This document shows positions 3,277 to 53,716 of a stretch of 53,716 nucleotides of DNA, piece after piece. Position numbers and translations under genes: made by a program. Position 1 is the first letter of the stretch. Every line of letters starts with the position of its first letter. Under the pieces are notes generated by a model. It had not been told where the DNA came from. It saw only the letters and a list, made by a program, of their open reading frames with translations, and ran no database searches. Source of the stretch: Gemmatimonadota bacterium (lineage in GTDB: Bacteria; Gemmatimonadota; Gemmatimonadetes; Longimicrobiales; Gaopeijiaceae); contig JAJDXM010000002.1 in assembly GCA_022823225.1 (NCBI GenBank), forward strand, positions 1 through 53,716, read 5' to 3'.

Positions 3277-4393
3277 ATGGCACAGGTTCACGAACAGATT
3301 CAGCGCCTCCACGCCGCAAGCCGGCGCATCGAGGAGCTTCGGGGGTATCTTTGACATTCCGGGGCGGATGGAGCGCATCAGGGCCCTCGATGAGGAGATG
3401 GCGAGCCAGGGGTTCTGGGACAACGGCGAGGAGGCGCGCCGGCTGATCGCCGAGGCGAATGGGCTCAAGGAGTGGGTGGAACCCTGGCGCGGGCTCTCCG
3501 CCAAGGCCGGCGAACTGGGGGAGCTGGGCGAGTTGCTCGGCGAGGAGGAGGACCCGGATCTCGCTCGCGAACTGGAGTCGGAGATACGTCTGCTGGAGAG
3601 CGAGTTGGGCGTGCTGGAGCTGCGCACCATGCTCCAGGGCGAGGACGACCACCGTGAGGCGATGCTGACCATTCACCCCGGCGCGGGAGGCCTCGAGTCC
3701 CAGGACTGGGCCGAGATGCTCTCCCGCATGTACGTGCGCTGGGCCGAGCGGCGCGGCTTCGCGCTCAAGGTGCTCGACCTCCAGCCGGCGGAAGAGGCGG
3801 GGATCAAGAGCGTCACGCTGGAGATCAGCGGCGACCATGCGTACGGATACCTGAAGGCGGAGAGGGGGGTTCATCGACTGGTCAGGATCTCGCCCTTCGA
3901 CTCCCAGTCGCGGCGCCATACCTCGTTTGCCTCCGTCTTCGTCTACCCGGTACTGGACGAGGAGATCGCGATCGACATCGACGAGTCGCACCTGAGGGTC
4001 GACACCTTCCGGGCATCCGGGGCGGGGGGTCAGCACGTCAATAAGACGGACTCCGCGATTCGCATCACGCACATTCCGACGGGGATCGTGGTTTCCTGCC
4101 AGCAGGAGCGGTCGCAGCACAAGAACCGCTCCACCGCGATGAAGATGCTCAGGGCGGCGCTCTACCAGCGGGCGCGCGAGGAAAAGAAGCGGGAGAAGGA
4201 GGCGTTGGAATCATCCAAGACCGAGATCGGCTGGGGCAACCAGATCCGCTCCTACGTCCTTGCGCCGTACACGATGGTGAACGACCACCGCACGGAGGTG
4301 AAGACGGGCAATGTGAGTGCCGTGATGGACGGGGCGCTGGATCCCTTCATCGAGGCCTACCTGAAGAAGTTCGGCGGAGACGGCGCCGGATGA
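3277..4393 (+). CDS. prfB: Peptide chain release factor 2 (programmed +1 frameshift)
   Basis: RF2 releases proteins at UGA and UAA. The gene is read in two frames: ATG 3277 opens a 25-codon segment that ends at an in-frame TGA (3352-3354), and translation continues in the +1 frame from 3353 to 4393, giving about 371 residues, close to the usual 365. The long part has the SPF recognition tripeptide (RISPFDS) and the catalytic GGQ (ASGAGGQHVNK, about residue 250). The first exon-like segment (AQVHEQIQRLHAASRRIEELRGYL) matches the RF2 N-terminal helix. Its stop overlaps the lysS start by 4 bases, the common prfB-lysS pairing. Confidence 0.95.
3341..3355 (+). promoter_or_regulatory. prfB programmed +1 frameshift site
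   Basis: The bases GGGGGTATCTTTGAC contain the classic elements: a Shine-Dalgarno-like G-run, the slippery CTT codon (3349-3351), and the in-frame UGA followed by C (3352-3355), the poor termination context. In the well-studied RF2 system, low RF2 leads to a slip from CUU to UUU so that reading resumes at GAC. This makes RF2 synthesis self-regulating. The match to the known consensus is essentially complete. Confidence 0.95.
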
Positions 4394-30214: not shown

Positions 30215-30287
30215 GCGGGAGTAGCTCAGTTGGCAGAGCATCAGCTTCCCAAGCTGAGGGTCGCGGGTTCGAGTCCCGTCTCCCGCT
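30215..30287 (+). tRNA. tRNA-Gly (anticodon CCC)
   Basis: The 73 bases fold as a complete cloverleaf: acceptor GCGGGAG/CTCCCGC, D arm GCTC/GAGC with loop AGTTGGCA, anticodon stem TCAGC/GCTGA with loop TTCCCAA (anticodon CCC, positions 30248-30250), and T arm GCGGG/CCCGT with TTCGAGT. The discriminator is T30287; the CCA end is not encoded. It reads the GGG glycine codon. Confidence 0.96.
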
Positions 30288-44307: not shown

Positions 44308-47088
44308 TCAGAACTCGAACACCGCATCGCGGCGCCGGAGCTGCAGCACCATCACATCCGGGTCGATCACTACGCGGTCGGGCTCGAACCCCGCGCGGAT
44401 CACGAACTCTGCCGACTCCCCCGCGCCCGGCACCACCTCGGTGCGGGCGTCGCTGTAGCCCTCGGCCACCACCGACCGGCCCCCATCCGCGCCCTCATCC
44501 GACCATCGCGCCCCGGCGACCGCGCCGACCTGCACGCGCATCCGGCCGGTACCCACATTCTCCACAGTCCCTCTCACCACCCACTCACCACCCTCCTGCA
44601 CCTTCGTCACTCCCGAAAGCCGGTACTCCGGCAACACCGAGCCGAAGAACCACTGCTCGGCGAAGGTGTCGAACGCCGCCGTATCGAGCGCGAAGTCACG
44701 CAACACGGCAAGCATGTCCTGAATCACCGGATAGTCCGGGCCCGCCCGGTACTCATCGATGAACGCGCGCAGTCCCGCAAGGAGGTTCTCCCGGCCCATC
44801 TCCTGCTGGAGCATCCACATGATCCAGGGGCCCCTGTTGTAGTCGCCCCCGGTGGTCCGGACCGGCGGCGTGGAAAACCCCGGGCGATAGACGATGACGT
44901 AGTCGCGCTCGCGCAGCCTGCTGAACGCCATCCGCTCGCGGTCCCCGTAGACCTGCTCGACCAGCAGCATGGCGGCGTACTCGGCCATCCCCTCGGACAG
45001 GAGGGCGTCGCCTCCCGGACCCTCTCCCGGCGTGAGCAGCGCACCCCACCAGTTGTGCGCGGCCTCGTGCGCGACGATCGCGAACGGTCCCCGCGAACCG
45101 GGTTCGCTCCTGTCCAGAAAACCCTCCGATTCGCTGATCACGATGTTCGTCGGAAACCCCTGCGCGCCGCCCAGGTAGCCCGGGTACTCCGACAGCTTGA
45201 GCACGCTCCACGGGAAGGGATGGAACCACTCGGCGTAGTACTTCCTGGCGGCGTCGAGGGCCAGCGCCATCTCCTCGATATTGTAGTCGTGCTCCGGGTG
45301 ATAGTAGATCGCGGTGCCTTCTCCCCGGTGCACGGCGTACCTGCCGGCGACCACGTTGAACATGGCCACGGGGTGGACCGTCTCCCACACCACCGTGCGC
45401 CGGCCGCCGGACATCTCGTCGCTCACCAGATCCCCGACTCCGAGCGCGGTGTACTCCTCCGGCATCGTGATCCGTGTCCGCACGGTGAAGCCCGGTCCGG
45501 CCCACAGGGTGACGGGCTCCGTCAGGCCCAAATGGAAGTCGTCCCTGTACTCCGGCGGATCGTGGTACTCCGAACCGATGCCGGGCCGGTATCCCGGAAC
45601 CGGCGCGAAGACCGGTTCGAAGCCATCGATGTTGACCCCGGACTCCAGGACGAACTTGCCCACGGGCCGGGGTGTCCTGCTGATGCCCCCGAGAACCACG
45701 ACCCGGTAGCGGAAGCCGATGGTGACGGTGTCACCGGGCTCAAGGGGCTGGCCGGGCGTGAAGACGTAGAGGCCGTCGCGGTTCTCCGGCTCGTACGGCT
45801 CGCCTCCCAGCGTCCACTCGATCGGTTCCCAGGGGCCGGCCGTCAGCGGGAACCGGTCGTAGGCGTAGTCGCGGTGGTTGCGGAAGGTGTACGCGCCGTC
45901 GACTGCCACGGAGCGCTCGGCGGGCTCGATGTCGAGATCCAGGTCCACATGGGACACCGCCGGCATCCTGAAACCCTTCCAGGTCGCGATGTTGCGGGTC
46001 CAGTAGTCCTTCTCCCACTCCTCGGCCGCCGGTCCCTGATAGCCGGAGCGGCCGCCGACTGCCAGCATGGATGCCAGCACGATCGGCCCGACGGCCAGCG
46101 GAAGCACCCGCACCGCGTCCCGGAGCAGCGGCCTGGGACTCAGGCGGCCCGCCAGTCCGGTGGCGTCGAGGTCGCGTCGCCGGAACCACCGGACCGAGAG
46201 CGCGATCAGCAACGGGACCAGGCTGAGGTAGAGCAGGCGGTTCAGCAGCAGCGGCTGGCCGTGCGGCACGAAGGCCCCCATGTCGCTCCAGGCGAGAACC
46301 TCCATGCCGATCCAGTTGCTGGTCCAGCTCTTGTACTGTTCCCCCATCGAGCTCCGCAGCGTGTAGATGAACACCGCCATTCCGGCCCCGTACACGACGT
46401 AGCGGTTGCGGAAAAGGGCGAAGAGCGCCGTGACCAGCGCCGTCCAGAAGATGAAGGTGGGCAGCAGGACCCCGCCCCAGACCGCGACGAAGGGCCAGAG
46501 TTCGAAGCCCACCGGGCTGCCGTGGGCGATCTGCCGGTGCACGATGACGCCGGCGCTGGCGAGCAGCACGACCACCAGGACGAACGCCGCCATGACGCTG
46601 TTTCCCAGCGCCTTGCCGAAGAGAATGGCACCGGTGGGGACCGGCGCGGACCCGTAGATCTCGTGCATGCGGCGACCGCGTTCCCTGTGCAGCGATTCCA
46701 CCGTGTAGAAGAGCAGCAGCAGGCATAGGAACATGCCGAGTTCGGTGTACTGCCGCGACGCCGAGATCCCCGAAGTCAGCAGCGAGTCGATCACGCTCGC
46801 CCTTGCCATCGCGATCCACAGGATCAGGGGCACGCACAGGTACATCCCGGGCCGGACCAGAAGATCCCGGATCTCGCAGCGCGCAATGGCGCCGGCCGCC
46901 CCCCGGAACCCGAGCGGACGGGTGGTCATCTGCAGATCCGCCAGCGTCGGCTCGGCTTGCGGACGGATCTCTGCGGCCACTGGGCGGGGACCCCTCAGGA
47001 AGCCGGTCAACCCGCCTGCCGACCTCGGCCCTCGTCCGGAGACTCCCGTCCGGACCCGGCGGGCGTAGATGACGGCGGCCCCGGCCAC
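44308..47088 (-). CDS. ABC-2 permease / M1 aminopeptidase fusion, 5' end lost
   Basis: The 926 residues from GTG 47088 begin with about seven membrane helices of an ABC-2-type permease (about 75-400) and continue with an M1 metallopeptidase domain. The zinc motif is HEAAHNWWG (674-682) and the third ligand is Glu699 in LLSEGMAEY, with 20 residues between rather than the family's usual 18. The G-x-M-E-N exopeptidase motif appears as GGAQGFPTN. Upstream of 47088 the same frame stays open to a TAA at about 47221 and codes for another helix (AVFLLSRLAWAGLGLAGVAG), without an ATG or GTG for a longer start. Full-length relatives carry roughly 250 more N-terminal residues, so the gene appears to be cut. 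Confidence 0.75.
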   Translation of the reverse strand: MAGAAVIYARRVRTGVSGRGPRSAGGLTGFLRGPRPVAAEIRPQAEPTLADLQMTTRPLGFRGAAGAIARCEIRDLLVRPGMYLCVPLILWIAMARASVIDSLLTSGISASRQYTELGMFLCLLLLFYTVESLHRERGRRMHEIYGSAPVPTGAILFGKALGNSVMAAFVLVVVLLASAGVIVHRQIAHGSPVGFELWPFVAVWGGVLLPTFIFWTALVTALFALFRNRYVVYGAGMAVFIYTLRSSMGEQYKSWTSNWIGMEVLAWSDMGAFVPHGQPLLLNRLLYLSLVPLLIALSVRWFRRRDLDATGLAGRLSPRPLLRDAVRVLPLAVGPIVLASMLAVGGRSGYQGPAAEEWEKDYWTRNIATWKGFRMPAVSHVDLDLDIEPAERSVAVDGAYTFRNHRDYAYDRFPLTAGPWEPIEWTLGGEPYEPENRDGLYVFTPGQPLEPGDTVTIGFRYRVVVLGGISRTPRPVGKFVLESGVNIDGFEPVFAPVPGYRPGIGSEYHDPPEYRDDFHLGLTEPVTLWAGPGFTVRTRITMPEEYTALGVGDLVSDEMSGGRRTVVWETVHPVAMFNVVAGRYAVHRGEGTAIYYHPEHDYNIEEMALALDAARKYYAEWFHPFPWSVLKLSEYPGYLGGAQGFPTNIVISESEGFLDRSEPGSRGPFAIVAHEAAHNWWGALLTPGEGPGGDALLSEGMAEYAAMLLVEQVYGDRERMAFSRLRERDYVIVYRPGFSTPPVRTTGGDYNRGPWIMWMLQQEMGRENLLAGLRAFIDEYRAGPDYPVIQDMLAVLRDFALDTAAFDTFAEQWFFGSVLPEYRLSGVTKVQEGGEWVVRGTVENVGTGRMRVQVGAVAGARWSDEGADGGRSVVAEGYSDARTEVVPGAGESAEFVIRAGFEPDRVVIDPDVMVLQLRRRDAVFEF

Positions 47089-47290
47089 GCCCGCCAGTCC
47101 CAGGCCCGCCCACGCCAGCCTGCTGAGCAGGAAAACCGCGTCGGGGATCAGGGCCGCCGTGTTCAGCTGTTCAGGCGGATCGCCTGAGGCCAGAATCCCG
47201 GCAGGAAATCGGCTAACTACTTACAGGGCTGGACGATCTGCGCTTCCTGCCTTTTCTCTGGACTTTGCTGGACCGTGCCGCAGGAGCGGG

Positions 47291-47310
47291 AAAACCGCCC
47301 TGAATGGCGG
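47291..47310 (-). terminator. Rho-independent terminator of the toxin-antitoxin operon
   Basis: Read on the minus strand, CCGCC and GGCGG pair (plus-strand 47295-47299 with 47306-47310) around a 6-base loop, followed directly by TTTT. It lies about 50 bases after the antitoxin stop, in the 139-base gap that separates the island from the truncated M1 gene. No gene is seen in the rest of that gap. Confidence 0.5.
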
Positions 47311-47359
47311 GACTCTGAGCGACTGATCTGGACGCCGAATCGACCGACTGCTCCAAAGC

Positions 47360-47644
47360 TTATGGGGACGGCACCAGTGCATGCCTGACCGCGTTCGGAT
47401 CGTGCTTGATAATGCGCAGAAGCGCCGCTGCCGGGCCGCTCACGCGGCGTCTCCCCTGCTCCCACTTCCGGTAGCCGGAAAGGCTCATTCCCATCAGGGC
47501 CGCCATTTGCGTCTGCGTCAGCTTCGCCTCCATCCGAACCTCGCGGGGCGAGATCGGGGTGTGAACGATGGCGGGACCCTCGCCCTTCGCATGGTCCAAG
47601 GCCTCGTTCAACGACTGGATCAGGTCTTCTCCGAACGTGCTCAT
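47360..47644 (-). CDS. XRE-family antitoxin (HigA/NadS-like)
   Basis: A 94-residue protein with a helix-turn-helix in the middle (KLTQTQMAALMGMSLSGYRK, about 41-60) followed by WEQGRRRVSGPAAALL, the standard XRE antitoxin pattern. Its ATG overlaps the toxin stop by 4 bases. In this family the antitoxin both neutralises the toxin and represses the operon. Confidence 0.9.
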   Translation of the reverse strand: MSTFGEDLIQSLNEALDHAKGEGPAIVHTPISPREVRMEAKLTQTQMAALMGMSLSGYRKWEQGRRRVSGPAAALLRIIKHDPNAVRHALVPSP

Positions 47645-47979
47645 TTGCTCTGCTTTCCTTGGAACTTGATCGCGGCCACGAGCCCGGCCGCCGCTCGGCG
47701 CTCGCTTGGGTTCAAATCGGTCTTGTCGGACTTCGAGTAGGCGAGAAGCGCGTAGAGCGGCACTCCTTCGCCCCCGAAGAAGTAGATCACCCGGGCACCG
47801 CCCCGCTTACCGCGCCCGGAGGCTCCGAATCGCATCTTTCGGACCCCGCCGGTGCCGGGTATCTCGTCCCCCGCCAAGGGATGCGCGGCCAAGTAGTCGA
47901 TCAGTTCGCGTCTCTCGTCCTCGTTGAACAGCTTGTCGGCCTGACGGGAGAAGGTTGGAGTCTCGGCAACGGTCTGCAT
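47641..47979 (-). CDS. RelE/HigB-like toxin
   Basis: A 112-residue protein from ATG 47979 (a longer form from 48009 is possible). The pattern is that of RelE-superfamily toxins encoded upstream of an XRE antitoxin: FSRQADKLFNEDERRELIDY near the start, then GTGGVRKMRFGASGRGKRGG, and the strand RVIYFFGGEGVPLYALLAYS with SKSDKTDLNPSE at the end. Such toxins cleave mRNA at the ribosome. Toxin-first order matches HigBA and similar pairs. Confidence 0.88.
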   Translation of the reverse strand: MQTVAETPTFSRQADKLFNEDERRELIDYLAAHPLAGDEIPGTGGVRKMRFGASGRGKRGGARVIYFFGGEGVPLYALLAYSKSDKTDLNPSERRAAAGLVAAIKFQGKQSK

Positions 47980-47989
47980 GGGAGCATGG

Positions 47990-48004
47990 TAACCCAATGG
48001 GGTA
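47990..48004. promoter_or_regulatory. Candidate operator of the toxin-antitoxin operon
   Basis: TAACCC-AAT-GGGGTA is a near-perfect palindrome (5 of 6 positions per arm) lying 11 bases before the toxin ATG at 47979. XRE antitoxins repress their own operon by binding such palindromes. If translation really began at 48009 the site would be inside the gene. Confidence 0.4.
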
Positions 48005-48030
48005 TTCATGGCAATCCCGGATGCCCTGTC

Positions 48031-48237
48031 TCACACTCTCTCGTGACGAGACACAGGGCACCAGCCCTCCCTGACCCAACGTTCAGGTCCAAGCAGCTTC
48101 TCGATGCGGCGCTGGATCCGTTGAGTTGCCCTAAGGCGATTCGTCCGGAGAACGGTTGATTCGCGCTCAGGTACTTGCGGACGCCGGAGGCCCGGTGCCC
48201 AATTCCATGGCGCGTCGAAGAGATCGACATCCTTCAC
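48031..48237 (-). CDS. Possible small protein (68 aa), divergent from mod
   Basis: A 68-residue frame from GTG 48237, with a plausible composition: MKDVDLFDAPWNWAPGLRRP and later RIQRRIEKLLGPERW, a basic amphipathic helix. No family is recognised. An AAAGGG lies directly in front of the GTG, too close for a good ribosome binding site. It occupies most of the 300 bases between the toxin gene and mod; otherwise that stretch is an empty divergent promoter region. Confidence 0.25.
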   Translation of the reverse strand: MKDVDLFDAPWNWAPGLRRPQVPERESTVLRTNRLRATQRIQRRIEKLLGPERWVREGWCPVSRHERV

Positions 48238-48278
48238 CCTTTGAGCCTACCAGCCGAACCCAAGAGCGAGATTTGTCC

Positions 48279-49958
48279 ATGCCGACACGGAAATACTCGG
48301 GTCGTCTGGAACTGACCTGGACCAACAAGCGACTCTGCCTACTCGCGAATCGGAACGAGGGTTACGAGTGGGTACCGCCTCACGACTACCGGGTGTCCGA
48401 AGTGCGTCTCTTGCGTGACGCGGCCCTCGTGGGCCGGACCCGTGCGGTGGACTCGCGAAGCTCCGACAACCTGCTGATCCGAGGCGATGCCCTGAATGCC
48501 TTGGTGAGCCTGTCGGAACTGCCGGAGTTCGCGTCCGAATACGTCGGCCGTGTCCGGCTGGCCTACATCGACCCGCCGTTCAACACGGGTCAGGCCTTCG
48601 AGGACTATGACGACAACCTCGAACACTCGGTCTGGCTGACCATGATCCGGGACCGGCTGTTGCAGATTCGCCGTCTCCTTTCGGAGGATGGCTCGGTGTG
48701 GCTTCACTTGGACGACGTGCAGATGCATCGGGCTCGGTGCGTCCTCGACGAGGTGTTCGGCGCGTCCAACTTCGTGGCCAACGTAATCTGGCAGAAGACC
48801 TACACGAGGGAGAATCGGACCGACATCTCCATCAGCCACGACAACGTGATCGTGTACGCGGTGAACAAGACGCTTTGGAAGAAGGCGAGGAACCTGCTGC
48901 CTCCTTCCGAAGCGCAGCGCTCGCGATACAGCAACCCGGACGACGATCCTCGCGGAGACTGGGCATCGTTGCCGGTACATGCGAAGGCCGAGAAGGGCAG
49001 GCGGAAGGAGCAGTTCTTCACCATCACGCTCCCGTCCGGTCGGCAGGTGGATCCGCCGCCCGGAAACTGCTGGCGCTTTACCCGAACTCGATACGACGAG
49101 ATGGTTGATGACGGGCGCATTTGGTTCGGGGACGAAGGCGATTCCCAACCCCGCCTCAAGAAGTTCTGGAACGAGGTCCAGCCGGGGCTCGTGCCCACGT
49201 CGATCTGGCCCTACGATGAAGTTGGCACCACCGGCACTGCAAAGGGCGAGATTCTGGCTCTGTTCCCCAGTGTGACACCGTTCTCGACCCCGAAGCCCGA
49301 GGCGTTGATCGAGCGCATACTCCACATCGCGTCCAACCCCGGCGACGTGGTTCTGGACTGCTTCCTTGGTTCCGGCACGACGGCGACCGTTGCCCACAAG
49401 ATGGGACGCCGCTGGATCGGTGTAGAGTGGCTTGAGGACACGGTCAGGGACTTCGCCATGCCCCGTCTGAGGCAGGTCGTCGAGGGGAACGATCCCGGGG
49501 GCGTGACCGATCTGACGGGCTGGCGGGGCGGGGGCGGCTTTCGCGTGCTCGATGTCGCTCCGTCGATGTTCGAGGAGTCGGACGGTGTCGTATACCTATC
49601 GGATTGGGCCGTCAACGGCGCTTTGGCCGAGGCCACCGCCGCGCAGCTTGGCTTTGCGTACCTGCCGGAGCATCCGTTCGCCGCCCGCAAGGGACGCAGC
49701 CGTCTTGCGGTTGTCGACGGGCACGTTTCGGTCGCGGTTGCCGACCTCCTGACAGGGGCGCTGGGAGCGCGCGAAACGCTCGTGATCTGCGCTACGAGCG
49801 TCGATCCGGCGGTTCGGGAGCACGTCCACGCGGCGGCTCCAGGCTCTTTTGTACGCAAGATCCCGGCGTCCATACTGGCCGAGTACCGGGTCAACCATCG
49901 CGAACGGCTTCGGCGGGAGCTGGCCCGGTCGGAGGAACCTGAGGAGGTGTCCGCGTGA
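48279..49958 (+). CDS. mod: Type III restriction-modification methyltransferase (Mod)
   Basis: A 559-residue adenine or cytosine-N4 methyltransferase. The catalytic motif IV is YIDPPFNTG (DPPF at residues 98-101) and comes before the SAM-binding motif I VLDCFLGSGTT (360-367), the beta-class order of type III Mod and related enzymes. Between them, about residues 165-330, lies the target recognition region, which would set the DNA specificity. The stop overlaps the GTG of the restriction subunit. ATG 48279 has only a weak ribosome binding site; an upstream frame to 48156 lacks family features. Confidence 0.9.
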   Translation: MPTRKYSGRLELTWTNKRLCLLANRNEGYEWVPPHDYRVSEVRLLRDAALVGRTRAVDSRSSDNLLIRGDALNALVSLSELPEFASEYVGRVRLAYIDPPFNTGQAFEDYDDNLEHSVWLTMIRDRLLQIRRLLSEDGSVWLHLDDVQMHRARCVLDEVFGASNFVANVIWQKTYTRENRTDISISHDNVIVYAVNKTLWKKARNLLPPSEAQRSRYSNPDDDPRGDWASLPVHAKAEKGRRKEQFFTITLPSGRQVDPPPGNCWRFTRTRYDEMVDDGRIWFGDEGDSQPRLKKFWNEVQPGLVPTSIWPYDEVGTTGTAKGEILALFPSVTPFSTPKPEALIERILHIASNPGDVVLDCFLGSGTTATVAHKMGRRWIGVEWLEDTVRDFAMPRLRQVVEGNDPGGVTDLTGWRGGGGFRVLDVAPSMFEESDGVVYLSDWAVNGALAEATAAQLGFAYLPEHPFAARKGRSRLAVVDGHVSVAVADLLTGALGARETLVICATSVDPAVREHVHAAAPGSFVRKIPASILAEYRVNHRERLRRELARSEEPEEVSA

Positions 49959-52417
49959 CCGGCCGACCGGGCAGCCTCGTCGACGAAGTGGCGCTCGACA
50001 TGGTCGCCTCCTGCTTGGACCTCCGTGTCCCCAACAAACGGGCAGTCAAGACGATAGCGCATGAGATCGGAAAACATGAGGCGTCCGGTTCCGACGGTGT
50101 TTTCGAGGGGGTCGTCGACGCGGCCGTCGGGATGGGGAAGACGTACATCATGGCGGCGGCAATGGACTACTTCGCCGTGAGTGAGGGGACCCGGAACTTC
50201 GCGATCATCACGCCGGGCAGCACCATTCTCCAGAAGACCAAGGGCAACTTCACGAGGAATCATCCGAAGAGCCTCTTGCAGGGGCTCGCGGTGCACCCGG
50301 TGGTCATCACGTCGGAGAATTTCAACACGCCGGCGATGAGGGCCGTCATGGACGACCCGGCGGCGGTCAAGCTCTACGTCTTCACTGTCCAGTCCTTACT
50401 CAAACCGACGACGAAGGTCGGTCGGCGTACCCACAAGTTCCAGGAAGGCCTCGGACGCGGTTTCTACGAGCAGCTGAGGGGCTTGGGAGACCTCGTGGTG
50501 TTCGCCGACGAGCATCATGTGTACGATGCCCCGAAGTTCTCGGAAGCGGTGCGGGACCTGTCGCCGCGCGCCTTGATCGGCCTCACGGGTACGCCGACAC
50601 GGAAGATGAAGACCCGCATCATCTACCGATTCCCCTTGGCTGCGGCTATCGCCGAGCAGTATGTGAAGACCCCGGTGATCGTGGGGCGCAGGGACGACCG
50701 GGACGACGCGCACACGAAGCTGCGCGATGGCGTTCAGTTGCTCGACCTGAAGCAACAGGCCGTCGATGAGTTCGCCGAGCGCGAGGCCGTGGACTCCGTG
50801 AACGCGGTGATGCTCGTTGTCGCCCAGTCGATCCAAGAGGCTCAGTTGTACGCCGCACTTCTCGAATCCGACTCCTTTGCTGGCGGGAAGTACGCCGGCC
50901 GGGTTCTCGAAATCCACTCGAAGTCACCGGACAAGGATCTGGCCGAACTCGAAGCCGTGGAGAATCGGGATTCACCCGTCCGAATCATCGTCGCGGTGGA
51001 CAAGCTCAAGGAAGGCTGGGACGTCAAGAACGTGTATGTGATCGCCTCGATGCGGGCATCCATCTCAAAGATCCTCACAGAGCAGACGCTCGGCCGCGGT
51101 CTCCGCCTCCCCTTCGGCCGTTACACGGGCGTCGAGTTTCTGGACACGCTGGAGGTCTTGGCGCACGAGAGCTACGACAAGCTCCTGAAGGCGAGGAGAG
51201 TCTTTCAGGAGACGTTCATCGATCATCGGACGCACGCGGTCGTGAGCGCGGCCCGGAAGCGCAACCCGGTGGTACGATCCGCAACCGCAGAGGTTGGATT
51301 ACAAGACGGTCTGGCGGGGTCGGGCGGCGGAGTGGAAACGGCAACCGAGACCCCGGTCGGGGCGACGGTCGCGACTTTGGAGGGTAGAACCGCAACGGGT
51401 GCGGCTTCGGTCAAGGTGCTCAGGGCGGAGCTTCGGGCGAGAGACGACGTGGATCCGATCCTCGTTCCGCAACTACGGATGACCACGATCAGGAGCCACT
51501 TTTCGTTGGCGGACCTCACCGACATGCGGCCGTTCCGCTTGCTGGGCGAGAAGATCGCGGCAGACCCGGCCCAGGAGTTGCGGCGCACGGTGTTTTCGGC
51601 TCGGCGGGTCGTGGGTCCGGACGGCCTGCCGCAGGTTCACGTGGTTCGCCGGGAAGCCGCTGACGCCATCGAGGCTTCCTCCGACCTGTTCCCCATGGAC
51701 CGGTTGCGATCCGACCTCGCGCGCCTCGTCCTCTCCGCCGATGCCGTACCCGGTCGGGCGGAGGAGAGGCTTCATCTCGGCAGGATTCTCGACGCTTTCG
51801 TCGAGGGCCTCGGCGCAAGGGCTCAGGAGTCGCTGAGCCACTATCTGGACCGGGCGGCGGCCCGGCTCATTGGCTTGATCGGGAGGGAGCAACAAGAGAA
51901 CGCCCCATCGCCATCGTACGAGGATGAGGTGGAAATATTGACACTCGACTCCGTGCGCATTGGCCGCCCGGAGACCTCGGAGGATCGGCGCGGCCCGTTC
52001 CGGCGGGGTGTGGGCTACACGGGCTGGGCGAAGTCGCTGTATCCGGAGGTCTCGTTCGACTCGACGCCCGAGCGGGCCGTGGCGCTCATTCTGGATGAGG
52101 AAGATTCCGTGTCGCATTGGGTTCGCCTCCACCGGAACGATCTCCCCATTCTCTGGCACAACGCCGGACGGGACTACAACCCGGACCTCATAGCGGTCGA
52201 GAACGACGGAACCCACCTGCTGATCGAAGTGAAGTCCGATCGCGAGATCGACTCCATCGACGTGACCGCGAAGGCCAAGGCCGCCCGGCGGTGGGCGAAC
52301 TACGTGAATGCTTCCAGCCAGGTTGCGGCGCAGTGGAAGTACCTGCTTCTCTCGGAGACCGACATCGAACAGTGCAAGGAATCATGGGCCGCGCTGAAGA
52401 GATTGAGCAGGGAGTAA
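49955..52417 (+). CDS. res: Type III restriction endonuclease subunit (Res)
   Basis: An 820-residue SF2 helicase-nuclease. Motif I is AAVGMGKTY (GMGKT at 59-63), motif II is ADEHH (185-188; DEHH instead of the usual DEAH/DECH/DEPH), motif III GLTGTPTRK, and motif VI region LTEQTLGRGLRLPFG. The C-terminal nuclease has a PD-(D/E)xK pattern: YNPDLIAVENDGTHLLIEVK with Asp744 and EVK at 758-760. Together with Mod it would cleave unmethylated DNA. The gene is coupled to mod by a 4-base overlap. Confidence 0.9.
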   Translation: MTGRPGSLVDEVALDMVASCLDLRVPNKRAVKTIAHEIGKHEASGSDGVFEGVVDAAVGMGKTYIMAAAMDYFAVSEGTRNFAIITPGSTILQKTKGNFTRNHPKSLLQGLAVHPVVITSENFNTPAMRAVMDDPAAVKLYVFTVQSLLKPTTKVGRRTHKFQEGLGRGFYEQLRGLGDLVVFADEHHVYDAPKFSEAVRDLSPRALIGLTGTPTRKMKTRIIYRFPLAAAIAEQYVKTPVIVGRRDDRDDAHTKLRDGVQLLDLKQQAVDEFAEREAVDSVNAVMLVVAQSIQEAQLYAALLESDSFAGGKYAGRVLEIHSKSPDKDLAELEAVENRDSPVRIIVAVDKLKEGWDVKNVYVIASMRASISKILTEQTLGRGLRLPFGRYTGVEFLDTLEVLAHESYDKLLKARRVFQETFIDHRTHAVVSAARKRNPVVRSATAEVGLQDGLAGSGGGVETATETPVGATVATLEGRTATGAASVKVLRAELRARDDVDPILVPQLRMTTIRSHFSLADLTDMRPFRLLGEKIAADPAQELRRTVFSARRVVGPDGLPQVHVVRREAADAIEASSDLFPMDRLRSDLARLVLSADAVPGRAEERLHLGRILDAFVEGLGARAQESLSHYLDRAAARLIGLIGREQQENAPSPSYEDEVEILTLDSVRIGRPETSEDRRGPFRRGVGYTGWAKSLYPEVSFDSTPERAVALILDEEDSVSHWVRLHRNDLPILWHNAGRDYNPDLIAVENDGTHLLIEVKSDREIDSIDVTAKAKAARRWANYVNASSQVAAQWKYLLLSETDIEQCKESWAALKRLSRE

Positions 52418-52541
52418 GTCCTCCGTCGCCCTTGCCGTCCATTAGAGGCTGGCGGCCAAGAGGCCGAAGAGCTTGCGCACGACGGCCCGCCGGACGCCGT
52501 TCCGGGCGGTGCCCGGAGAGGTGTTTTCGGAGCCGTCCCAA

Positions 52542-52640
52542 GGCTGGCTTGACGCAGGCAAAGGGAGACAAGCCAGCCTACCCGGTGTCATACACCGGGG
52601 CTGGCGAGGGACTCCGTCCCTTCGAACCCGAACAGCCCCG
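52542..52640 (+). other. Strongly folded non-coding segment
   Basis: Within the 378-base gap after res (52418-52795), which holds no supported gene, several perfect stems follow one another. AGGCTGGCTTG (52542-52552) pairs with CAAGCCAGCCT (52570-52580); CCCGGTGT pairs with ACACCGGG around CAT (52582-52600); GGGGCTG (52598-52604) pairs with CAGCCCC (52634-52640) and encloses AGGGAC/GTCCCT (52608-52622). The last stem reuses bases of the second, so the two are alternatives. It may be a structured RNA, a transfer or replication site, or part of a mobile element. Confidence 0.5.
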
Positions 52641-52717
52641 CGCTCCGGTGAATTGCGCGGGCGGGGGCGTCGCCCACGACATTGGCGCCGCCCGACCAAC
52701 ACCTCGTCGGAGCGTTC

Positions 52718-52739
52718 TCGGTCGATTACAATTGACCGA
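52718..52739 (+). promoter_or_regulatory. Palindrome and -10 box before the duplicated-module gene
   Basis: TCGGTC and GACCGA (52718-52723 and 52734-52739) flank a core that is also partly symmetric (ATT...AAT). Inside it lies TACAAT (52727-52732), a good -10 box, with only a weak -35 upstream. A repressor at this palindrome would cover the promoter of the gene that starts at 52796. Confidence 0.4.
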
Positions 52740-52795
52740 CCTCCGACTCATCCGCGTCCAGCGGGGCGCGGTCCTGCCTCTCGAAAGGGTTCGAC

Positions 52796-53476
52796 ATGGA
52801 CAGCTTGCAGGATCCCGTCGTGCAGTACGTGGAAGCGGAACTGAAGAAGGATCCCCGCGTGAAGAACGCCAGCCTGTTCGCCGTTGCTCGTGAGATCGAC
52901 GAGTCGGTCGGGGAGCTGACGCTGCAACAGTTTCACGCCAAGTATCGGCTACCGGCGATCAGGAGAATAGCGCCCCAAGAGCGGCGCGCGCAGAAGCCGA
53001 AAGCGGTTCCGCCACCTGCCCCCTCGCCAGCGTCTTTGAGTGATGGTGCCGCCGTCATGGAGTATGTCGAGCGGACGCTCGCCGGGAACCCCGGCGTCAC
53101 CAACGCGGACCTGTTCGCGGGTGCCCGCGAGATCGACCCCTCCGTAGGGCAACTCACGGCCCGGCAGTTCCACGCGAAGTATCCCCTCCAAGTGAAGGCC
53201 CGGCTCGCAAGGGCCGCCGTGCCCGAGCCCAAGCCGCCGCCGGAGCCGGCGGTCGCGACGGCTGAGGAGCCCGCCGCGCCGGACGTGTCGTCGGCGGCGG
53301 GGGCGGGTGACCCGGAGGCACCGCCGACCGGGGCGGGCGACCCGCTCGCGGTTCGCCGCCTGCTGCTCGATCTGGCCAAGGAGCTCGCGAGCGCGGAGAG
53401 CAAGTCGGAAGTGATCGACGTCATGGCCCGGCTGGACGACTATGTGGCCGAGATCATGGAGGCGGCACAAGGCTGA
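52796..53476 (+). CDS. Unrecognised protein with two copies of a conserved ~50-residue module
   Basis: A 226-residue protein; ATG 52796 has AAAGGG 7 bases upstream. Residues about 8-58 and 84-134 are copies of one module, alike at roughly 29 of 51 positions. Shared marks are VxxYVE, the ...V.NA..LFA segment, AREID.SVG.LT and QFHAKY. Each copy is followed by a basic patch (RRIAPQERRAQKPK after the first) and a Pro/Ala-rich linker. The C-terminus (about 182-226) is an amphipathic helical segment (VRRLLLDLAKELASAESKSE). I do not recognise the family. Basic patches and helical content suit DNA binding, but this is an inference. Confidence 0.8.
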   Translation: MDSLQDPVVQYVEAELKKDPRVKNASLFAVAREIDESVGELTLQQFHAKYRLPAIRRIAPQERRAQKPKAVPPPAPSPASLSDGAAVMEYVERTLAGNPGVTNADLFAGAREIDPSVGQLTARQFHAKYPLQVKARLARAAVPEPKPPPEPAVATAEEPAAPDVSSAAGAGDPEAPPTGAGDPLAVRRLLLDLAKELASAESKSEVIDVMARLDDYVAEIMEAAQG

Positions 53477-53590
53477 GGGATCCCCGAGTCTTGGTGGCCC
53501 GGCATCGGCTTCGAGGGCCGCGAGGGTGCGGTGGCGCGCATGGCACGAATGAGACGGGCCAGGAGCGTTGCGCGGACGCATTACGGGGGT

Positions 53591-53666
53591 CTGGGGGCAT
53601 CCCCCAGCCAGAGTAAACGTGAAGCGTTTACACATCTGGCTCCTCCGAAACCCCGCGAACGCGGGG
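53591..53666 (+). repeat. Train of three hairpins (possible oriT or element end)
   Basis: Three inverted repeats lie almost end to end in the gene-free 240 bases after the duplicated-module gene. The first is CTGGGGG-CAT-CCCCCAG (53591-53607). The second is an imperfect 36-base repeat, AGCCAGA-GTAAACG ... CGTTTAC-ACA-TCTGGCT (53606-53641). The third is CCCCGCG-AA-CGCGGGG (53651-53666). A G-run hairpin, then an inverted repeat with a short GAAG-type loop, is the kind of layout seen at transfer origins. No relaxase is in the window, so this stays a hypothesis. Confidence 0.45.
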
Positions 53667-53716
53667 ACCCCCTGCGCGCGCCGCGTGAGAGCGCCTTCAG
53701 CGCGAGCGGTCGAGGC

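Follow-up and report, generated by a model that had tools for sequence, protein, structure and literature searches.

Plasmid-encoded H-NS homologs, such as Sfx of R6K, control conjugation according to two reports (PMC11796372, PMC13250579); RdfS is an oligomeric helix-turn-helix (HTH) recombination directionality factor (RDF; PMC11963761); and the iOriT class of relaxase-less mobilizable elements has been reviewed (PMC11389934). The locus described here lies in a window of 53,716 nt (the whole stretch of DNA that was analyzed; Table 1) from a member of Gemmatimonadota, a common phylum with few descriptions of its chromatin proteins and mobile elements. Its two-module protein is like the Sfx/H-NS-type element nucleoid proteins in being borne on a mobile element, having chromosomal nucleoid-type kin, and adjoining transfer functions, with DNA binding and self-association proposed for it below; it is unlike them in lacking a sequence match, in its predicted HTH-like, tandem modules, and in residing on a Gemmatimonadota integrative element. 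With RdfS, Xis, and Cox it has in common an HTH-like protein encoded beside a tyrosine recombinase, but it differs from them in combining two modules with a putative pairing hairpin, in its length and acidity, in the absence of predicted winged strands, and in that most integrases of the family adjoining it have no such gene. The element resembles the iOriT elements in that its borders enclose an integrase, an oriT-like site, and cargo with no relaxase, though its oriT and mobilization are putative, being read from sequence.

The open reading frame has a GC pattern of the coding type (0.75/0.49/0.83), and comparison with seven relatives shows purifying selection on the orthologs (NG86 dN/dS about 0.3-0.4). 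The original prediction had described a duplicated module with a basic tail on each copy, Pro/Ala linkers, and a following amphipathic helix in a protein proposed as a candidate new family. The duplication is evident, with 31/56 positions identical between the two modules (56 aa each), an alignment score of 144 against a mean of 23 and a maximum of 48 in 2000 shuffles, and DNA that is 72% alike over 94 nt; the Pro/Ala linkers between the modules are likewise seen in the protein sequence. The basic tails hold locally (net +6 for tail 1 and +3 for tail 2), but the protein overall is acidic (pI 5.0). Structure prediction of the full protein (13 rows) yields two helical modules and a confident C-terminal hairpin, and hence the terminal region is helical as foreseen but predicted as two helices (residues 183-199 and 203-225) rather than one.

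Profile and single-sequence searches with the protein and its module against Pfam, NCBIfam, PHROGs, PADLOC, and PDB sequences gave chance-level matches only, and a literature search for the module motif returned no match. The novelty of the family is supported, as curated families and solved structures gave no relative. Predicted alone, the module forms five helices (pLDDT 95, pTM 0.81). Foldseek searches started from the whole model or from the isolated module gave no significant match (E > 0.5), a Foldseek/VIA null that leaves room for a shared fold; on a second look the module's best structural matches were mostly homeodomains, Lrp/AldR, FapR, Fur, and Mu transposase (Z 3-5, best Z 5.1, none significant). 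Hence, we describe the modeled fold as HTH-like, a tri-helical HTH core being compatible with it rather than proven. The strongest conservation in the family, RQFHA[KR]YPLQVKRR, covers the last two helices of the module, and these helices 4-5 would form the surface that touches DNA.

Most relatives come from Gemmatimonadota and a few from Acidobacteriota: they are present in 24/59 near genomes, in 51/298 genomes of the phylum searched with a module profile, and in 4/297 genomes of the phylum of a MAG labeled Bryobacterales. In two of these last four the window-type protein is present almost unchanged, owing perhaps to mis-binned contigs or to transfer; the Gammaproteobacteria label of some further matches is doubtful, since the coordinates of the G318 contig are common to G252, which is placed in the window's own family. 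The single-module architecture comprises the module, a basic linker, and the hairpin (120-207 aa, pI 10-12), and the two-module architecture combines the modules with the hairpin and is basic in family f7 and acidic in the window genus; the hairpin is conserved across the whole family, single-module relatives included. The linkers of the distant single-module relatives are strongly basic, H1-like (lysine/alanine-rich) or AT-hook, which suggests, at the level of sequence, a nucleoid-associated DNA-binding family. Among the single-module relatives from the Acidobacteriota-side survey (L133, L134, L136), the L134 linker carries five GRP AT-hook cores and that of L133 two related repeats. These lysine/alanine-rich or GRP-repeat linkers recall the bacterial histone H1-like/AT-hook proteins, but the relatives bearing them additionally possess the conserved HTH-like module and hairpin, and their Pfam linker-histone matches are sub-threshold (E 0.02-0.09). 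A linker histone identity is unsupported, the best matches to PF00538 and NF038053 (E 0.02 and 0.059) falling below the cut-offs.

In a quick FastTree of the short module sequences, which is weak evidence, the duplication appears common to the window clade and the basic f7 clade, and the G033/g12 proteins were duplicated separately. The window protein belongs to the acidic two-module branch, which is mobile, whereas the related f7 clade, in another family, is chromosomal (four loci with common conserved neighbors), and thus the protein family is not confined to elements. A plasmid search gave a single match, a single-module relative on the 1.1-Mb replicon of Gemmatirosa kalamazoonensis; a phage origin is unsupported, phage records and viral contigs having no match. 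We tentatively advance, at rather less than even confidence, that these proteins constitute a new nucleoid-protein class specific to Gemmatimonadota and Acidobacteriota, characterized by an HTH-like module, an AT-hook/H1-like linker, and a pairing hairpin; one branch would have undergone duplication and been recruited by a multi-copy family of integrative elements to serve as a DNA-bridging controller of their integration and transfer.

A sister genome has the empty site (G008:C161), which fixes the borders of the element: there, window 44308-47172 and positions 1537-2284 of contig C30 are adjacent and share 6 nt; the element comprises 47173-53716 plus C30:142-1536 (7939 nt, 7.94 kb). The junction between the window and C30 is backed by relatives that span it on one contig (L046, L051) as well as by the empty site. 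The prediction of an element-specific protein is supported for the acidic branch: the mapped element encloses the gene, which has the oriT-like block on one side, the tyrosine recombinase on the other, and restriction-modification genes nearby. Gene calls between the borders include no relaxase gene. With an oriT-like block present and a relaxase absent, the element fits the iOriT class and looks like an integrative mobilizable element without its own relaxase; our literature search found no description of this element family. The RelE-like reading frame and its small partner probably form a toxin-antitoxin pair. The ~142-nt repeat at the left end is present in many copies per genome, whose outer flanks are unrelated; it is frequent across genomes of the genus (e.g., L243-L261), and most copies probably mark other elements. 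Elsewhere in the window, positions 1-232 are the 3' end of a 16S rRNA gene and 30215-30287 a tRNA gene.

Table 1. Features of the element and of the two-module protein gene (window coordinates unless prefixed by a contig).
Feature	Position	Strand	Remarks
6-nt CTGTTC	47167..47172	.	Flanks the element on both sides (second copy C30:1537-1542); single copy in the empty site
Element left end, dispersed ~142-nt repeat	47173..47315	+	Starts precisely where host DNA ends
Probable toxin-antitoxin pair	47363..48009	-	RelE-like toxin 47641-48009 (RelE 1.4e-5, just under gathering score); small partner ORF 47363-47644
Type III DNA methyltransferase (cargo)	48156..49958	+	N6_N4_Mtase 7.8e-44; MTase_III 5.9e-132
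Type III restriction helicase/endonuclease (cargo)	49955..52417	+	ResIII 4.2e-17; REase_III 3e-69
oriT-like block	52573..52690	+	Covarying hairpin CCAGC...GCTGG, then GCGAGGGAC; same block directly upstream of mobC-relaxase operons elsewhere in the genome
Imperfect dyad CGGTCGATTACAATTGACCG, possible operator	52719..52738	.	Kept only in part of the family
Two-module protein gene	52796..53476	+	226 aa; coding GC pattern, purifying selection
Module 1 (residues 4-59)	52805..52972	+	Profile match G000:C76:52808-52972, E 6.5e-25
Module 2 (residues 83-138)	53042..53209	+	Profile match 53048-53209, E 9.7e-28; modeled as five helices, HTH-like (pLDDT 95)
C-terminal helical hairpin (residues 183-225), putative pairing domain	53342..53470	+	Predicted structure; conserved in single-module relatives
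Exact overlap with contig C30, 141 nt	53576..53716	+	Last 141 nt of the window are the first 141 nt of C30, which runs on into the tyrosine recombinase
Structured leader or att-region candidate with covarying hairpin	53584..53670	+	Also 5' of integrases without a module gene
Tyrosine recombinase (integrase)	C30:280-1440	+	Phage_integrase E 6.5e-15; within the element borders

Folded DNA on both sides of the gene had been foreseen and is confirmed (z = -3.0 to -4.5 against shuffles), the two key hairpins covarying; Rfam has no match for either structured block. The upstream block aligns with the DNA immediately 5' of mobC-relaxase operons (MobC 4.9e-11, Relaxase 2.4e-6) on further contigs of this genome and of a relative (L139, L141, L048, L143-L145), and its stem covaries, with three double-change pairs and 94.8% pairing versus at most 57% when slid. 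It is the probable transfer origin of the element, judging by sequence, and lies 5' of the module gene, within about 0.2-1.1 kb, at five loci (window, L036, L047, L049, L077), being absent from most module loci. The end of contig C1 (L137 5404-5702) has as its last 140 nt a stretch identical to window 52585-52724 and is probably another element, whose oriT/module part was collapsed in assembly. The downstream leader hairpin covaries strongly, with five double-change pairs, 98.4% pairing, and a covariation of 0.257 versus 0.112 shuffled; as this leader also precedes integrases that have no module gene, it belongs to the integrase. The palindrome that had been placed over the gene's promoter exists as a dyad, but a promoter scan found no sigma-70 site there.

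We give an even chance to the window protein being an element-borne, nucleoid-protein-derived DNA-binding/bridging factor that acts on the oriT-int region as an accessory of a relaxase-less integrative mobilizable element. We infer DNA binding, dimerization, targets, and a regulatory outcome as follows: the product would be a DNA-binding protein descended from a Gemmatimonadota nucleoid-associated family, each HTH-like module of which would touch DNA through its conserved last helices; the C-terminal hairpin would join two subunits into a dimer with four DNA-binding modules; this dimer may bind several sites, namely the oriT, its own promoter, and the integrase-leader region, and bridge or bend this DNA, thereby controlling both the expression of the integrase and the element's excision/transfer state. 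The architecture, as modeled, is compatible with bridging of the H-NS type. That the protein bridges DNA or acts as a control protein, as originally suggested, is plausible by inference from the predicted HTH-like fold, the basic/AT-hook relatives, and the likely pairing hairpin; the borders, the placement upstream of the integrase, and the shared oriT-like block add support to the reading as an element-borne controller. Conversely, the basic linkers have disappeared from the window clade, and therefore binding would fall to the modules alone; the lack of a significant fold match and the presence of the oriT-like block beside the gene in five loci only also count against a controller, as do the scatter of module-adjacent integrases over the integrase tree and the many integrase copies that have no module gene.

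The position of the gene directly upstream of the integrase, on the same strand and 378 nt from it, would also suit an RDF (excisionase) that binds att or the int leader and drives the adjoining tyrosine recombinase to excision, and HTH RDFs that oligomerize on attP upstream of int do exist, such as RdfS. In 14/15 informative loci of the acidic clade, not all of them independent, an integrase of the same family lies downstream of the module gene on the same strand, at a spacing of 0.25-0.9 kb (3 kb in L055), the exception being L042, with the integrase upstream across an N gap. However, the 12 module-adjacent integrases are scattered among the 44 on the integrase tree and form no single clade, which argues against a tight partnership with one integrase lineage and disfavors a dedicated excisionase. 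Moreover, this 4.2-Mb genome has 23 integrase matches versus two module genes, and most integrases of the family have no module gene, being mostly preceded by mobA or by nothing. The length (226 aa) and acidity of the protein also speak against this role, and its chromosomal homologs in another family have conserved neighborhoods without any integrase; no integrase of this family was found beside the module gene in about a dozen basic, single-module, or chromosomal loci. A strict excisionase role is hence less likely than a DNA-binding/bridging factor, and we regard it as improbable. The tyrosine recombinase family itself is strongly expanded in the genus, with counts in other genomes reaching at least 32.

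The HTH-like modules and the upstream dyad would also be in keeping with simple transcriptional repression, exerted at the protein's own dyad promoter and possibly also on int or on the restriction genes, as genes adjoining restriction systems often require control. Restriction systems do lie near the module gene in homologous loci, a neighborhood association the original prediction had raised, and are of type III, type ISP/IIG, or MmeI-like. Yet only part of the family keeps the dyad, the promoter scan recognized no promoter, and several module loci (L035, L037, L039-L041) have no restriction genes in view, making a repressor unlikely; for the same absence we rejected a restriction controller protein as the main reading. 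In L039 (4165-7332), L040, and L041 a conserved protein of ~1056 aa without a family match is encoded upstream of the module gene and is possibly an unknown cargo. Very improbable is a relaxosome or mobilization accessory labeling the element's oriT for use by another element's relaxase: the oriT-like block upstream of the gene and the relaxase and MobC elements in the same genome would suit it, but those elements already encode MobC and most module loci have no such block.

The protein points to a candidate lineage-specific nucleoid protein family, met here on defense-carrying integrative elements with its gene flanked by a probable oriT and the integrase; if DNA binding proves true, it would furnish another independent case of an element-encoded chromatin-type protein governing its element's own movement. 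The second two-module paralog of the same genome (L077, G000:C14, 1495-4462) lies behind an MmeI-like restriction gene that is apparently cut at 4329 by the left end of another element, and in L047 (298-2339; also L031/L009) ~1.35 kb of inserted DNA splits the module gene within module 1.
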